This document shows positions 4,312 through 13,888 of a stretch of DNA of 30,917 nucleotides, piece by piece. The notes beneath the pieces are model-generated. The model saw only the letters and a list, made by a program, of their open reading frames with translations, did not search any database and was not told where the DNA came from. Numbering within the stretch: the stretch's first letter is position 1; each line of letters opens with the position of its first letter. Made by a program: the position numbers and the translations under genes. The DNA is from a virus: positions 1 through 30,917 of the IMG/VR virus record IMGVR_UViG_3300032294_000883. One strand, written 5' to 3'.

Positions 4312-5682
4312 CTATCCGAACACCGAGTAATCTGCTACAGCCACCCCCGGACCAGCCCGCCGCACCGTCCCACGGAACGGCCTGCGACCCTTGGCGAGGT
4401 ACCGCAGAGCATCGGCGTAATGACTCGTCCAGTCGTGCAGCGGCCTGTCCTTGAACCGCTGCAGCCGATCGTCGTACTCGCGCCGGTACTGCCGGATGGC
4501 GTCGATCGCTCGGGTCATGCGAGCCGCTGCGTCCTCGGCAGTCTCACCGGGGAACGGGTCGGGTGCCTTGTTCCACTCGACCACGGGCAGCATCTGGCGC
4601 ACCGCCTGGATGCCATCGTCCACCGAATCAGCCTCGAGCACCCGTGGCTTGAGGCCATACCCTGCCGCTGTCTCGAGCCGGGACTTGCCAGACCCCCACT
4701 CCTTTACCGCCCCATCGTGAGGCCAGATGTGGTCACCGTACACATAGTCCATGGCGAGGAGCTTCTTCGCGTACCACTCTAGGCCAACGCCGGAGCCTTC
4801 CAGCACGTTGATGATGCGGATCTTGTGACCGACGAACTGGTAGAACCAGACCACCGTCGAGTCGCCGATGCCGATGTCCCATGCCGTCCCGACCGGCTGG
4901 CCGACGATGTGCGGGAACTCGCCAGATCTGCTGCCCTGCTCGGCCTTGAGGATGGCATCGCCGTAGTACGCACCGGGAATGTCGGCATCGAAGTCGCAGT
5001 AATACTCCTGCCGGATGATGGCCTCGGCTTCCTTCTCACCGCGCTCGACCCGCAGCTCCTTGCGCTCTCGGTCGATGATGTCCTTCGAGATCGCCTTGGT
5101 GTCCTCGACCGTCAGCACCTGACCGAACCACTCCGGGTCTTTCCGGGCGTAGTCCACCAGACGGGCAAAGTGATTCCGACCTCGAGGTGTCGAGATGAAG
5201 ATGGCCCAACCGCCGTTCTCGGCGAGGATGGGACGCAAGAATGCCCAGGCATTCGGGTCGGCGAGAGCGTACTCGGAGAACACCACCCCCATGGGCGGCG
5301 AACCGATGAGGCTGTTGTAGTTGTCCGAACCCACGACCTGCCAAGTCGAGCCGTTCTTGAACCGGATGAACATGTCCTGCTCTCGGGTCGTCTCGCGCAG
5401 CTCGGGCGGGAACGCAGCGTCGATGCGCCGCCGTCCGGTATGCGGGTCCACCGCGTCCCAGATGGCCTTCCTGGACTGGTTCGCCTGGGGAAGCATGTGC
5501 CAGATGCCGCCCACCCGCTGCATGGCCGACACAGCAGCCCAGTGAAGGCTCAGGTCATCCTTCCCCGATCTTCGGTGCCAAGAAAGGGCCAACCGCTTGC
5601 AGCCGCCCTCGAGCGCGGCCCACGCCGGCATCTGGTATGGGCGCGGTCGCCAGCCATTAGCCGGCAGCGTTACTGTCGGCAT
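4312..5682 (-). CDS. Terminase large subunit (packaging ATPase-nuclease)
   Basis: A 456-residue DNA-packaging motor. ATPase motifs: Walker A-like HRRSGKDD (residues 36-43), Walker B MGVVFSEYA (131-139) and the coupling motif FISTPRG (162-168). The C-terminal RNase H-like nuclease shows AWDIG (Asp269), PHDG (Asp323) and HDWTSHYADALRYLA (416-430). It pumps DNA into the prohead through the portal and cuts it. The start at 5682 lies 26 bases inside the terminase small-subunit gene, indicating coupled translation. All catalytic motifs appear intact. Confidence 0.96.
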   Translation of the reverse strand: MPTVTLPANGWRPRPYQMPAWAALEGGCKRLALSWHRRSGKDDLSLHWAAVSAMQRVGGIWHMLPQANQSRKAIWDAVDPHTGRRRIDAAFPPELRETTREQDMFIRFKNGSTWQVVGSDNYNSLIGSPPMGVVFSEYALADPNAWAFLRPILAENGGWAIFISTPRGRNHFARLVDYARKDPEWFGQVLTVEDTKAISKDIIDRERKELRVERGEKEAEAIIRQEYYCDFDADIPGAYYGDAILKAEQGSRSGEFPHIVGQPVGTAWDIGIGDSTVVWFYQFVGHKIRIINVLEGSGVGLEWYAKKLLAMDYVYGDHIWPHDGAVKEWGSGKSRLETAAGYGLKPRVLEADSVDDGIQAVRQMLPVVEWNKAPDPFPGETAEDAAARMTRAIDAIRQYRREYDDRLQRFKDRPLHDWTSHYADALRYLAKGRRPFRGTVRRAGPGVAVADYSVFG

Positions 5683-6046
5683 CCGTCATCCGCACGACAT
5701 TGACCGTCAGGCCGACGTTACCCGAGTGCTCGACCTCGGCCTTGTCCCCGTACCGCTTGGGCAGGAACTTGGAGGCAAACCACTTGCGGGCGTCGAGCTC
5801 GACCCGCGCTTGCTGGGCATCGATGACCCCGTTCCGCATGTCCTCGATGACCTGCTCGGCCTTCTCGACCTGATCCTGAGCAAGTGCTTCCAATGCGCGC
5901 GCGTAATTGTCACCAGCCGTGACCTTCAACGCCGCTGCTCGGAAGGTTGCCCGATTGATGCCGACCTGTAGACAGGCGGCGTTCTCCGACATGCCGTCCT
6001 CGACGAGCGCGAGGACTGCCTTGACCTGTTCTGCTCTGTCCGGCAT
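5657..6046 (-). CDS. Terminase small subunit, Sf6 gp1-like
   Basis: 129 residues. The N-terminal HTH-like segment (about residues 5-36; LVEDGMSENAACLQVGINRATFRA) would recognise the packaging site. A central helical part with Gln/Glu and the C-terminal DARKWFASKFLPKRYGDKAEVEHSG block are characteristic of Sf6-type small terminases. It recruits the large subunit encoded next. The ATG at 6046 overlaps the previous stop (TGATG); a GTG one codon upstream is possible but less likely. Confidence 0.92.
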   Translation of the reverse strand: MPDRAEQVKAVLALVEDGMSENAACLQVGINRATFRAAALKVTAGDNYARALEALAQDQVEKAEQVIEDMRNGVIDAQQARVELDARKWFASKFLPKRYGDKAEVEHSGNVGLTVNVVRMTDADSNAAG

Positions 6047-10080: not shown

Positions 10081-10229
10081 TGTCGTCTCCTGGCCTCCTC
10101 CACGGCCTCGCAGATGACCTCCACCACACCGCGCACCCACCGAGTCCGCCGCTTGGTCAACCTCGATGCCTCGCGGCGAGACTCCAGGTGCGCCCGGTAG
10201 TACGCACGGTGATACGCAGTGCGGCTCAT
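10071..10229 (-). CDS. Small Arg-rich hypothetical protein, 52 aa
   Basis: The ATG at 10229 overlaps the stop of the HTH regulator (ATGA). The product begins MSRTAYHRAYYRAHLESRRE and continues with arginine-rich helical sequence (LTKRRTRWVRGVVEVICEAV) to RRRQGP. The high positive charge suggests nucleic-acid binding. No family is recognised. Its stop lies in the loop of the first hairpin of the structured region. Confidence 0.68.
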   Translation of the reverse strand: MSRTAYHRAYYRAHLESRREASRLTKRRTRWVRGVVEVICEAVEEARRRQGP

Positions 10230-10465
10230 GGGCTATCAGGCGTAGGCCGCAACCCAGCCTCGATCTTGCGAATCAACCTCCGAGTGCTGCGCGACTGGTC
10301 CTCCTCCTTGAGCTCGGCCACAACCTCACCGGCAAGCTCACGCAACGCATACCGCTCCGGCACGCCAACACGCGCCCACTTCGATACCGCTGCCCGCGTG
10401 ACACCGAACCGCCGCGCAATGGCGCTTTGGTTGCCGTACTTCTTGACAAGTTCATCGACAGTCAT
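10226..10465 (-). CDS. Cro/YdaS-like helix-turn-helix regulator
   Basis: 79 residues. MTVDELVKKYGNQSAIARRF, then GVTRAAVSKWARVGVPERYA, is a textbook Cro/YdaS-type HTH: helix, 'GNQSAIARRFGVTRAAVSKW' and then an anchoring helix. It is the first leftward gene, divergent from the early rightward operon, the usual site of a phage Cro- or C-type repressor. It probably binds operators in 10466-10586. The ATG at 10465 has GGAGG five to seven bases upstream; upstream in-frame codons lack a ribosome site. Confidence 0.88.
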   Translation of the reverse strand: MTVDELVKKYGNQSAIARRFGVTRAAVSKWARVGVPERYALRELAGEVVAELKEEDQSRSTRRLIRKIEAGLRPTPDSP

Positions 10466-10490
10466 AAGACCTCCGTTGTTAACGACCGGA

Positions 10491-10519
10491 AGCATACGGC
10501 AAAAAAAAGATGGATACAA
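10491..10519 (-). promoter_or_regulatory. Weak putative promoter of the leftward HTH operon
   Basis: On the minus strand TTGTAT (10519-10514) and TATGCT (10496-10491) are separated by 17 bases, including a run of eight T. Both hexamers are imperfect. Between this site and the start codon lies a small dyad, CGTT-GTT-AACG (10474-10484), which could serve as an operator or stabilise the leader. Confidence 0.4.
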
Positions 10520-10522
10520 GTG

Positions 10523-10552
10523 TTGACATGGCTACCGGAGCCGGTTTAGGAT
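10523..10552 (+). promoter_or_regulatory. Early rightward promoter with operator in the spacer
   Basis: A perfect -35 TTGACA (10523-10528) and a -10-like TAGGAT (10547-10552) are spaced by 18 bases. Within the spacer is a perfect dyad ACCGG-AG-CCGGT (10534-10545), ideally placed for a repressor to block RNA polymerase. The leader continues with ACACACACAGGGGA, a good ribosome site, to the ATG at 10587. The neighbouring Cro-like protein is the natural candidate to bind. Confidence 0.68.
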
Positions 10553-10586
10553 TCACCCGTCGATCACACACACAGGGGAATTGACC

Positions 10587-10787
10587 ATGAGATACCGACC
10601 CATCCCGTCCCACCTGCCTCCCGCCATCCGCTGGGGAATCACCGCAGGTCAGCTCCGCGCCGGACGAGATCAGGCGATGGAGTACGCCCGCCAGAACCCG
10701 AAGATGACGGCCTACATCACGATGGCTCGTAACCAGAACCGCATGATGCTCCAAGCCCTGCGCTTCGCCCGCGAGGTGCAGTCATGA
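10587..10787 (+). CDS. Hypothetical protein, first gene of the early rightward operon, 66 aa
   Basis: Basic helical protein (MRYRPIPSHLPPAIRWGITA, then MEYARQNPKMTAYITMARNQ). The ATG at 10587 with AGGGGA upstream is preferred to a TTG two codons earlier. No family is recognised. As first gene of an early operon it may act on host functions. The stop overlaps the next start. Confidence 0.72.
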   Translation: MRYRPIPSHLPPAIRWGITAGQLRAGRDQAMEYARQNPKMTAYITMARNQNRMMLQALRFAREVQS

Positions 10788-11047
10788 ACGACGCAATCGC
10801 ACTCAAGTGGCAGGCTGCTTTCTGGGCCAGAATCCAGAATCATCAGCCGACTGCAGACAAGCACTTTTTCGGCGATGAGTGGCGAGCATTGACCGAGACC
10901 CGCACGATGGAGGCCGCTAAGGTCGCAGCCTATCAGGTGCATCTCGCTCGACTTGGCGTGGACGATGATGAGGCTGACGCTCTGGACGAGATGCAGATGC
11001 AAGCCTCCTCCGTCATGCACGACCTGCAGCGCAAGGTGGCCGCATGA
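10784..11047 (+). CDS. Hypothetical helical protein, 87 aa
   Basis: Mainly alpha-helical, with an acidic second half (LGVDDDEADALDEMQMQASS, then MHDLQRKVAA). No membrane segments or known motifs. Its start overlaps the preceding stop (ATGA) and its stop overlaps the next ATG, so it is translated as part of a coupled string. Unknown function. Confidence 0.7.
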   Translation: MNDAIALKWQAAFWARIQNHQPTADKHFFGDEWRALTETRTMEAAKVAAYQVHLARLGVDDDEADALDEMQMQASSVMHDLQRKVAA

Positions 11048-11235
11048 CCGTCTTGCAACACATCTACTGCGCCCTCGTCGCTCTGGCCTCTGGCGTCGGT
11101 TTCATCGCTCTCGGGTACTACATGCTCACCCGCCCCTTCCCGCACCACAAACGGGATCGGCGGGAGCGTCTGCCGAACCCCGCCTGGAGAGCCCGCGTCT
11201 ACCAGCCCCATCACCTCAGCCGATGGTGGGTGTGA
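11044..11235 (+). CDS. Small membrane protein, 63 aa
   Basis: One hydrophobic helix at about residues 8-28 (YCALVALASGVGFIALGYYM) is followed by a strongly basic tail rich in Arg, Pro and His. The positive-inside rule suggests an N-out, C-in single-pass protein. No family is known. Possibilities include host takeover at the membrane or superinfection exclusion; neither is supported by motifs. Confidence 0.68.
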   Translation: MTVLQHIYCALVALASGVGFIALGYYMLTRPFPHHKRDRRERLPNPAWRARVYQPHHLSRWWV

Positions 11236-11366
11236 TGGAAGACTGCGACCAGTGGTGGTACCACCAAGACCAACTCATGCAGGAGCTCGAGGAGCAAGAA
11301 CGAATCGACGCCTGCAACCAAGCCCTCTCGAAGTACACACAGGAAACACACGATGAACCAGTCTGA
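11235..11366 (+). CDS. Small acidic protein, 43 aa
   Basis: The ATG overlaps the previous stop (TGATG). The product (MEDCDQWWYHQDQLMQELEE, then QERIDACNQALSKYTQETHD) is acidic and helical and has two cysteines. Its end overlaps the start of the ERF gene by 14 bases. No function is assigned. Confidence 0.62.
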   Translation: MEDCDQWWYHQDQLMQELEEQERIDACNQALSKYTQETHDEPV

Positions 11367-11898
11367 ATCTATCGCGGCCCTCGCCGCTGCTCTGTCCAAG
11401 GCACAGGCCGACATCACCGGAGCCTTGAAGGACAGCGCGAACCCGTTCTTCAAGTCCAAGTACGCCGACCTCGCGTCCTGCTGGGACGCTTGCCGTGCGC
11501 AGCTCACCGCCAACAACCTCGCCGTCATCCAGACGACCGAGATCGGCGAGACCGGGGCGGTGCTCGTCACCACCCTCGCGCACTCGTCGGGCGAGTGGAT
11601 TCGCGGGTACCTGCCCATCCTGTCCAAGGACGCAGGACCGCAGGGGCAGGGATCGGGCATCACCTACGCCCGCAGGTATGCGCTTGCCGCTATCGTCGGC
11701 CTCGCCCAGATCGACGACGACGCCGAGGCAGCGCAGGCCCGTGGCAAGCCCGAGGTCAAGCCCGACCCCGACCTTGCCAAGAAGGTAGCCGAGTGCCAGA
11801 CCCTCGCCGACCTGACCGCCTTGTTCAAAGGTCTCACCGAGGCGCAGCGTCAGGCATCCTCCGGCATCTTCGCCGCCCGCAAGAAGGAACTCGGCTGA
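11353..11898 (+). CDS. ERF-family single-strand annealing protein
   Basis: 181 residues. SIAALAAALSKAQADITGAL, NPFFKSKYADLASCWDACRA and GPQGQGSGITYARRYALAAI are diagnostic of the ERF superfamily of phage recombinases; GITYARRYAL is the most conserved part. It anneals complementary single strands and works with the exonuclease encoded next. The C-terminal tail is a Lys/Asp-rich linker with a short helical domain. The ribosome site is AGGAAA with an ACACAC leader before ATG 11353. Confidence 0.93.
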   Translation: MNQSESIAALAAALSKAQADITGALKDSANPFFKSKYADLASCWDACRAQLTANNLAVIQTTEIGETGAVLVTTLAHSSGEWIRGYLPILSKDAGPQGQGSGITYARRYALAAIVGLAQIDDDAEAAQARGKPEVKPDPDLAKKVAECQTLADLTALFKGLTEAQRQASSGIFAARKKELG

Positions 11899-12506
11899 TG
11901 GAGCAGCGTACCCCCGAATGGTTCGCCAAGCGGCTCGGGCTCGTGACCGCCAGCCGGATTGCCGATGTCATGGCGAAGGTCAAGACCGGCACAGCCGCCT
12001 CACGCAGCGGGTACATGACGCAACTCGTGACGGAACGCCTCACAAGACAGCCTACGGAGGGCTACCAGAGCGCCGCGATGGAGTGGGGTATCGAGCAGGA
12101 GGGTGCCGCCCGCGCCGCCTACGAAGCCCGTACAGGCGTCCTCGTGGATGAGGTGGACTTCGTGCGCCACCCCACCCTTGAGGCCGGTGCCTCTCCCGAC
12201 GGGCTGGTCGGGGAGGACGGATGCATCGAGATTAAGTGTCCGAACACGGCCACGATGCTCGAGTACATCGAGGACCGTTCTGTCCCCCGCAAGTACCTCC
12301 TGCAGATTCAGTGGCAACTTGCATGCACAGGTCGCAACTGGTGCGACTTCGTGGCCTACGACCCCCGCCTGCCGGAGCACCTGCAACTGCTGGTCATCCG
12401 GGTGCCGCGTGATGAGGATGTCATCGAGCAGATCGCCGCCGAGGTAGGCCGGTTCGTGACCGAGCTGCGGGATCGGGTCGAGCACCTGCGGGAGCTGCGC
12501 CTGTGA
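11898..12506 (+). CDS. YqaJ/lambda-type alkaline exonuclease
   Basis: 202 residues with the full YqaJ recombinase pattern: RTPEWFAKRLGLVTASRIAD at the N-terminus, ASPDGLV with Asp101, EIKCP with Glu111-x-Lys113, and QIQWQLACTGRNWCDFVAYD for the Gln-x-Gln motif. It degrades one strand of duplex ends to give single-strand tails for the ERF protein. The ATG overlaps the previous stop (TGATG). This pairing is a SynExo-type recombination system. Confidence 0.94.
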   Translation: MEQRTPEWFAKRLGLVTASRIADVMAKVKTGTAASRSGYMTQLVTERLTRQPTEGYQSAAMEWGIEQEGAARAAYEARTGVLVDEVDFVRHPTLEAGASPDGLVGEDGCIEIKCPNTATMLEYIEDRSVPRKYLLQIQWQLACTGRNWCDFVAYDPRLPEHLQLLVIRVPRDEDVIEQIAAEVGRFVTELRDRVEHLRELRL

Positions 12507-12721
12507 TATCCAACCTCGTCACCGGGTACTTCATCCAATGGGAGATGCCGACCGGCTGGGAGGATGTCCCCGCCGGGGTCATCCGTACCACCGGGTTCGA
12601 CTTCCCGCCCTACTTCGACATCAACAAGGCACAGGCCGTGCTCGACACAATCGTGGCCTTCGCCGCTGACGATGACGCATTCCGTCTCGTCGGTCGTCCA
12701 GTTCCCATCAACCAGGAGTAA
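12503..12721 (+). CDS. Hypothetical small protein, 72 aa
   Basis: GTG start at 12503 overlapping the exonuclease stop (GTGA). The product (MISNLVTGYFIQWEMPTGWE, then FDFPPYFDINKAQAVLDTIV) is acidic and aromatic, probably alpha/beta, without membrane segments. It lies between the exonuclease and the SSB-like gene, so a recombination accessory role is plausible. No family is recognised. Confidence 0.65.
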   Translation: MISNLVTGYFIQWEMPTGWEDVPAGVIRTTGFDFPPYFDINKAQAVLDTIVAFAADDDAFRLVGRPVPINQE

Positions 12722-12724
12722 TCC

Positions 12725-12988
12725 ATGCCATTTGACCGTACCAACACCGGAACCCTTCGTCGCAACGAGCGCAAGGAAAAGGAAACGCACCCCGACTTTA
12801 CCGGGGACATCAACATCAACGGCACCGAGTTCTGGCTTTCGGGCTGGATCAAGACGGCAGGGGAGAACAGCAAGAACCCCGGCCAGAAGTTCTTCAGCCT
12901 CGCCGTCAAGCCGAAGGAAGGGCAGCGCCCGAAGACCCTCGCGGAGCAGAAGCCCGAGGAGTTCATCGACGACGACATCCCCTTCTGA
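12725..12988 (+). CDS. SSB-like protein with acidic DDDIPF tail
   Basis: 87 residues. A beta-rich body (GDININGTEFWLSGWIKTAG, then PGQKFFSLAVKPKEG) fits a small OB-like fold. The C-terminus EFIDDDIPF carries the acidic tip used by bacterial SSBs to recruit partner proteins. Together with its place between the exonuclease and NinB, it is very likely the phage single-strand DNA-binding protein, though a clear family is not assigned. Confidence 0.8.
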   Translation: MPFDRTNTGTLRRNERKEKETHPDFTGDININGTEFWLSGWIKTAGENSKNPGQKFFSLAVKPKEGQRPKTLAEQKPEEFIDDDIPF

Positions 12989-13401
12989 TGAACCGCATCT
13001 TCCCCAGAGGCACCACCCCTGACCAGATCGCTACGGCGATCTCGGTCATGGTGCGGTGGCTGGACCCCGGCAAGTCCTGGAAGGTCACGCTCGAGGAGTT
13101 CAAGCCGCGCCGGTCGGACTCGCAGAACGCCTTCCTCTGGGCGGTTGTCTACCCGTCCATCCTTGAGGGCGGTGGAGAAGCCCTTGCAGGCTGGCAGAAG
13201 GACGACCTGCACGAGTTCATGCTCGGCGAGCACTTCGGCTGGGAGACGCTCTCCCTCGGCGGCAAGACCGTACACAAGCCGATCCGCCGCTCGTCCCGCC
13301 TCAACAAGCAGGATTTCAGCGACTACCTCGAGTTCCTCTCCCGCCGCGCCGCGGAACTCGGCATCGTGATACCCGAACCCACATACGGAGAACACACATG
13401 A
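12988..13401 (+). CDS. NinB/Orf-like recombination mediator
   Basis: 137 residues. The segment RRSDSQNAFLWAVVYPSILE and the later DLHEFMLGEHFGWETLSLGG resemble NinB (lambda Orf) proteins, which bind single-strand DNA and SSB and help load annealing proteins. Its start overlaps the SSB-like stop (TGATG). Neighbours ERF, exonuclease and SSB make a complete recombination module. Confidence 0.85.
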   Translation: MNRIFPRGTTPDQIATAISVMVRWLDPGKSWKVTLEEFKPRRSDSQNAFLWAVVYPSILEGGGEALAGWQKDDLHEFMLGEHFGWETLSLGGKTVHKPIRRSSRLNKQDFSDYLEFLSRRAAELGIVIPEPTYGEHT

Positions 13402-13607
13402 CGCAAACCGAACAGATCCGCGCCCACCTAGTATCGGGCCGCGATATCACACCCCTTGAAGCACTCGACCGCTACGGCTGTTTCCGGCTCGCCGCTCGGG
13501 TCGCTGACCTTCGTGCCACCGGCCTCGATGTCCAGACCGTGACCGAGGAGCATAACGGGAAGCGGTATGCCCGGTACCGGCTCGTCGGGCAGCTCGAGCT
13601 CGTATGA
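13398..13607 (+). CDS. HTH_39-like winged-helix protein
   Basis: 69 residues. TQTEQIRAHLVSGRDITPLE, then ALDRYGCFRLAARVADLRAT, is the recognisable short helix-turn-helix of the HTH_39 type, which often accompanies phage recombination genes. It probably binds DNA, possibly as a regulator. ATGA overlaps at both ends show that it is part of the operon. Confidence 0.8.
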   Translation: MTQTEQIRAHLVSGRDITPLEALDRYGCFRLAARVADLRATGLDVQTVTEEHNGKRYARYRLVGQLELV

Positions 13608-13888
13608 ACCTACGCAAGCAGGCACGAGGCCGGGGCTGCACCGTCAGGCTCTCCGGAGTGTGCAACCACAACTCCGAGACGGTCGTCCTGGCGCATATCC
13701 GCATGGCCGGGATCTCCGGCATGGGGCTCAAGGCCGACGACCTGCTCGGGGCATGGGCGTGTTCAGCTTGCCACGACGCCATCGATCGCCGCTCCCACCC
13801 CGACCTCGAGCGCGACTATGTGCGCCTCGCCCACTTCGAGGGCATGGTGCGCACCATCGCTCAACTGAGGTCGGAGGGGATCGTCTGA
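13604..13888 (+). CDS. YbcO-like (DUF1364) putative nuclease
   Basis: 94 residues. The pattern RGRGCTVRLSGVCNHNSETV, then VLAHIRMAG and WACSACHDAIDRR, is typical of YbcO/DUF1364, an HNH-like fold with Cys and His residues for metal. In lambdoid phages these proteins occur with NinB in recombination regions. It may be a structure-specific endonuclease; substrate is unknown. It is the last rightward gene, converging on the tail fibre gene with one base between stops. Confidence 0.88.
   Translation: MNLRKQARGRGCTVRLSGVCNHNSETVVLAHIRMAGISGMGLKADDLLGAWACSACHDAIDRRSHPDLERDYVRLAHFEGMVRTIAQLRSEGIV

Follow-up and report, generated by a model that had tools for sequence, protein, structure and literature searches.

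The stretch analyzed here is the IMG/VR virus record IMGVR_UViG_3300032294_000883, whose full length of 30,917 bases we call the window. Our subject is the recombination gene cluster at positions 11353-13888, and in particular a gene for a 72-amino-acid (aa) protein, named u72, which lies between the exonuclease gene and the single-stranded DNA-binding protein (SSB) gene. Judged from its sequence, the cluster is the recombination part of an early operon in an uncultured tailed phage. Seven genes follow each other on the plus strand in the order ERF, YqaJ, u72, SSB-like, NinB/Orf-like, HTH_39 and YbcO; a first-pass annotation had claimed this order with these coordinates, and both were confirmed by open reading frames (ORFs), Pfam and PHROGs. 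Gene order, protein-type selection, allele reassortment and lineage restriction were directly observed; everything said below about the function of u72 is inferred. We lean toward the view that a recombination module of a known kind carries an exchangeable, lineage-specific accessory gene, the product of which more likely faces the host than serves as a core partner.

The u72 gene (12503-12721, plus strand) opens with a GTG codon that overlaps the exonuclease stop, and it has no family match. A YqaJ protein scan of IMG/VR returned 247 exonuclease relatives and an SSB scan 308; the best 80 of each were analyzed, and more distant operons lie outside both samples. u72 directly follows the exonuclease in 32 of the 80 best-matching exonuclease loci, being present in all 32 loci where the exonuclease shares 75% identity or more with that of the window and in none of the 48 at 60% identity or less. 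In every one of the 31 loci with a readable start, it begins at -3 relative to the exonuclease stop, and 17 columns are invariant among 11 aligned copies. The ratio of nonsynonymous to synonymous rates (dN/dS) was 0.13 to 0.39 in seven of seven close pairs, each of which has only 3 to 16 synonymous changes, and 0.30 to 0.63 in six of six pairs between alleles, where dS is high; five or more diverged alleles exist (A to E are named). The 72-aa unknown noticed at first pass is a real, translated gene under protein-type selection, and its conserved homologs and low dN/dS rule out a chance ORF. In the next-closest operons (L037-L042), u72 is absent and the SSB gene itself overlaps the exonuclease stop.

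Searches for a relative of u72 by sequence found nothing significant in Pfam (best 0.14, under the cut-off), PHROGs (best 0.2), NCBIfam (best score 0.051, well under the cut-off) or PDB sequences (best E value 0.84); none of four alleles matched a PADLOC defence model at E values up to 10, and tblastn of alleles A, B and D against the described-phage collection gave nothing better than E 0.08. A u72 profile scan of bacterial and archaeal genomes produced 103 pattern matches and no relative. The predicted structure, with a predicted local distance difference test score (pLDDT) of 85.6, consists of two strands, a short helix, a long helix and a final strand. Foldseek found no match to this model at E <= 0.001, its best neighbors being unnamed or uncharacterized small phage proteins, and VIA-align found no PDB chain reaching Z 5; its leading PDB rows, PII-like and Cas2 among them, lie at Z 3-5, a level at which we neither claim nor exclude a family, and the likeness of the model to the PII-like and Cas2 rows may be merely a common arrangement. 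As far as searched, the u72 family is small and without described relatives, comprising 32 IMG/VR contigs and the window. One of these contigs (L030, record G001, 37,075 bases) carries u72 split over both of its ends, with some residues missing between them; because the contig begins and ends inside u72, this suggests a genome that is close to complete and either circular or circularly permuted.

Alleles A and B of u72, which are only about 60% alike, stand beside exonucleases that are 97-99% identical. Between the window and another locus, L007, dS is 0.09 in the exonuclease and 0.56 in u72, and identity drops sharply from position 12498 onward, to rise again in the SSB tail. This dS contrast, together with the identity drop, indicates that whole u72-SSB blocks have been exchanged under an unchanged exonuclease. 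Among 33 records (the window and 32 contigs), u72 alleles and SSB cores were paired as B/B in 11, B/A in 11, A/A in 3 and A/B in 3, while the rarer pairs were C/B in 1 and D/E with core C in 2, the SSB being unreadable in 2; the counts are of records, and several contigs are near-copies rather than independent events. The linkage of u72 alleles with the exonuclease or SSB by which a SynExo partner would be recognized was not found. Additionally, the four ORFs upstream of ERF were detected in 24, 27, 26 and 30 loci, respectively, out of 80, every one of these loci being u72-bearing (contigs that end early miss some). As these ORFs too are retained within the u72-bearing clade, synteny restricted to one lineage is a shared trait of the small genes in this operon and no special mark of u72.

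Related operons carry other cargo as well, which we counted in favor of u72 as an accessory gene. A 139-aa HNH nuclease ORF stands between SSB and NinB in L026-L029 and L043 (4079-4498 in L026, 4081-4500 in L043), its start overlapping the SSB stop; the L026 copy matches PHROG 1492 (4.8e-24) and is homing-nuclease-like. Between HTH_39 and YbcO, L027 has a PAPS-reductase-like gene (5120-5932; PHROG 424, 1.8e-43), which was translated in this locus only, its presence in L028 and L029 being read from equal spacing. The simple gene caller used for these operons gave wrong frames in several loci of this GC-rich DNA, and only its rows for L026-L029, L043 and L037-L042, which agreed with independent locus data, were used.

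On the basis of the protein families, we propose that YqaJ would resect double-strand ends 5' to 3', that the SSB-like protein would coat the exposed strand, that its acidic tip would recruit the NinB/Orf mediator and Erf, and that Erf would anneal the strand to a homologous one, with YbcO and HTH_39 in accessory roles; concatemers for packaging and mosaic genomes would be the products. In this scheme, u72 would be a lineage-specific accessory gene that was gained between the exonuclease and SSB and has been replaced as an allele block through recombination. Its product is most likely a small host-facing protein, acting for example on host end-processing or on some other host factor, and would share the timing of the operon without being a structural partner of the exonuclease or SSB. 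Several observations weigh against this proposal. No evidence points to a particular host target of u72, and the acidity of allele A, with an isoelectric point (pI) of 4.1, is not shared by B and C (5.6-5.8). In the u72 profile scan, the patterns of which favor close copies, 29 of 29 loci fell on contigs of the exonuclease list, and no loss of the gene was seen in the 32 close loci; a gene found only beside the exonuclease and never lost is also what would be expected of a true partner.

The alternatives that we weighed overlap partly with the host-facing reading in the probability given to them. The one that survives best, which we regard as a serious possibility though not the favored one, holds that u72 has no tie to recombination and landed in the operon by chance, as one among many small early genes. 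The four other small ORFs with the same lineage-restricted synteny and the cargo inserted elsewhere agree with this idea, as do the best structural neighbors, which are unnamed or uncharacterized small phage proteins and none of which reaches E <= 0.001; however, purifying selection and the absence of loss indicate that u72 has a use, though not which.

It is rather unlikely, in our estimation, that u72 is a dedicated partner of Erf, YqaJ and SSB, for example a clamp or loader touching the exonuclease or the SSB tail through its GW-DVP and R-GRP motifs. Its constant place after the exonuclease with an overlapping start (31 of 31 readable loci), its retention in 32 of 32 close loci, the 17 invariant columns over 11 copies, and an SSB tail type, T1, common to 29 of 30 classifiable records would all fit such a role. 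However, u72 alleles that are about 60% alike accompany near-identical exonucleases, each of the two occurs with either main SSB core, the upstream ORFs are syntenic in the same clade, and the closest outgroup operons do without u72. The evidence for a tie between u72 and the recombination enzymes is mixed and mostly negative. At first pass, u72 had been proposed as a new SynExo partner from its position; the position stands but is not special, the gene is absent from L037-L042, and its alleles reassort with SSB cores. The partner idea is unproven rather than refuted, because a partner that makes contact solely with conserved residues or with the shared SSB tail would agree with the data. Still less probable is that u72 founds a recombination accessory family binding the T1 tail (or the exonuclease) via the invariant GW-DVP and R-GRP; if it does bind the T1 tail, the lineage would retain a single SSB tail as a fixed docking strip and exchange unrelated cores around it, offering a natural experiment that separates single-stranded DNA binding from partner recruitment.

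We also consider it rather unlikely that u72 inhibits or hijacks host end resection (RecBCD, AddAB or AdnAB) in place of Gam, gp5.9 or Abc2/Arf. In the lambdoid set described in an excerpt of one study, every phage with a RecBCD inhibitor also had a recombinase (PMC3784561), and several such inhibitors are small and acidic according to extracts of another (PMC9836394); among the 42 window proteins examined, none is more acidic than u72-A. Nevertheless, the acidity varies from pI 4.1 to 5.8 across alleles (A, 4.13 and 4.13; B, 5.70 and 5.63; C, 5.82; D, 4.62; E, 4.94), and the predicted fold of u72 is strand-rich whereas the same extracts describe gp5.9 and Gam as helical (PMC9836394). A DNA mimic of the Gam or gp5.9 type was rejected, as u72 lacks a strong conserved negative charge.

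The names of the recombination genes differ in firmness. ERF, YqaJ, HTH_39 and YbcO exceed their Pfam cut-offs. The ERF single-strand annealing protein (181 aa, 11353-11898; Pfam ERF, 2.7e-21; PHROG 2324, 5.2e-37) adjoins the 5'-3' exonuclease YqaJ (202 aa, 11898-12506; Pfam YqaJ, 1.5e-27; PHROG 149, 5.4e-43) with a one-base overlap, which is the arrangement of an Erf-YqaJ pair of the SynExo type. At the other end of the cluster lie the winged helix-turn-helix protein HTH_39 (69 aa, 13398-13607; Pfam, 3.9e-15) and the YbcO-like HNH nuclease (94 aa, 13604-13888; Pfam YbcO, 1.5e-36; PHROG 131, 5e-39). The NinB/Orf-like mediator (137 aa, 12988-13401) matches PHROG 72 at 1.1e-13, PHROGs having no curated cut-off, but falls below the cut-offs of Pfam NinB (0.094, 13 bits against 23.8) and NCBIfam PRK09741 (9.2e-7, score 29 against the curated 164); because of these scores we keep to the wording "NinB-like," which was also that of the first-pass annotation. 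The SSB-like protein (87 aa, 12725-12988) has no match in Pfam or NCBIfam, and its identity is based on PHROG 7364 (3.4e-15) and on the acidic C-terminal tip DDDIPF, which is present as had been reported. Its predicted structure (mean pLDDT 68.8, four strands) neither supports nor opposes an OB fold; the model had no significant PDB match, and the four sequence matches were not significant either (best E 0.48). The coupled order claimed for these genes is confirmed: five of six junctions overlap by 1 or 4 nucleotides (nt), and the remaining junction, u72/SSB, is a 3-nt gap.

The more informative by-product of the analysis is the shuffling of SSB cores and tails, seen across the window (12725-12988), L007, L009, L021, L032, L035, L036 and L211. 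Core A of the window and core B of L007 and L021 are 27% identical while their tails are 72-84% identical; conversely, L007 and L032 share 88% identity in the core but 37% in the tail. The third core, in L035 and L036, is 60% like core A and has the same tail type. Like tails on unlike cores, and the reverse, indicate that the SSB tail has been exchanged independently of the core; the data fit selection on the tail as a docking strip and a usual crossover site equally. T1, the tail of 29 of the 30 records with a classifiable tail, occurs with NinB types I and II; T2 accompanies NinB II in L032, whereas the T2 record G001 has a NinB copy with 82% likeness to type I. A tracking of NinB type by SSB tail type was considered and no link was seen, though T2 was met only twice. 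Stimulation of the annealing protein Sak4 in phage HK620 requires the final six residues of SSB, and the tip of Escherichia coli SSB is DDDIPF, identical to that of the window (both from extracts of PMC5928155); the binding of YbcN to SSB likewise depends on the SSB tail, according to an excerpt of PMC4118853. Unlike cores that share a tail raise the direct question of whether Erf and the Orf-like mediator read the tail alone.

Neighborhoods of ERF, YqaJ, SSB and NinB are already known, and the operon is an ordinary phage recombination set. Among the matches listed, the YqaJ of the window is 46-56% identical to those of described phages, with phiLM21, PBR31, VSN-002, ct7QV12 and Pam1 at 52-56%. 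As in the window, an annotated annealing protein adjoins the exonuclease in phiLM21, VSN-002 and ct7QV12; NinB is annotated in phiLM21, VSN-002 and Pam1, and SSB in PBR31 and ct7QV12. These described Erf/SSAP-YqaJ phages (SSAP, single-strand annealing protein) differ from the window in u72, for which the tblastn search with alleles A, B and D found nothing better than E 0.08 in the phage collection. In one survey of Firmicutes phages, ssb is a neighbor of erf at almost 80% of the phage loci with erf that were considered, and homing nucleases are reported near such modules; as far as the extracts of this survey go, these modules differ from the window in host phylum and in their other accessory genes (Gam of Mu, DUF2483, DUF1351) (PMC8093625). 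In the P22 Erf region, as in the window, small genes of partly unknown role (Arf, Abc1, Abc2) accompany an Erf annealase, of which Abc2 acts on RecBCD while Arf and Abc1 are called uncharacterized in the extracts of PMC9836394; unlike this setting, the P22 genes themselves show no sequence relation to u72 in the Pfam, PHROGs and NCBIfam scans. The NinB-like protein resembles lambda Orf/YbcN in matching PHROG 72 and, weakly, PRK09741, the domain assigned to YbcN in an excerpt of PMC4118853, but differs from them in falling below the Pfam and NCBIfam cut-offs. We found no published description of SSB core/tail shuffling or of a small gene lying between YqaJ and SSB, which is not proof of absence. 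The module adds one more example of a familiar phage strategy and may be of use as a source of recombineering enzymes, and u72 is small, conserved, undescribed and easy to test.

The window also carries tailed-phage genes for a head-tail connector (Pfam, 2.7e-114), a small terminase (Pfam, 2.9e-13), a capsid protein (Pfam, 2.9e-81) and a DUF1376 protein, and the 30.9-kb contig is probably an incomplete tailed-phage genome. The cluster had been called a complete operon; all of the named genes are present, but a promoter-like site and four plus-strand ORFs without a named family (10581-10787, 10784-11047, 11044-11235 and 11235-11366) precede ERF. Because of these, the operon probably starts before ERF, near 10581, and includes the four ORFs. 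The candidate promoter (10523-10552, plus strand; TTGACA, 18 nt, TAGGAT) has 10 of 12 consensus bases and is suggestive only, with one such match found against 0.6 expected after shuffling. A Cro/YdaS-like regulator gene (10226-10519, minus strand; P22_Cro, 7.7e-07, 29.2 bits against a Pfam cut-off of 30.2) faces the operon, leaving a divergent start region at 10519-10581. Among the four upstream ORFs, one of 63 aa has a hydrophobic stretch at its start.

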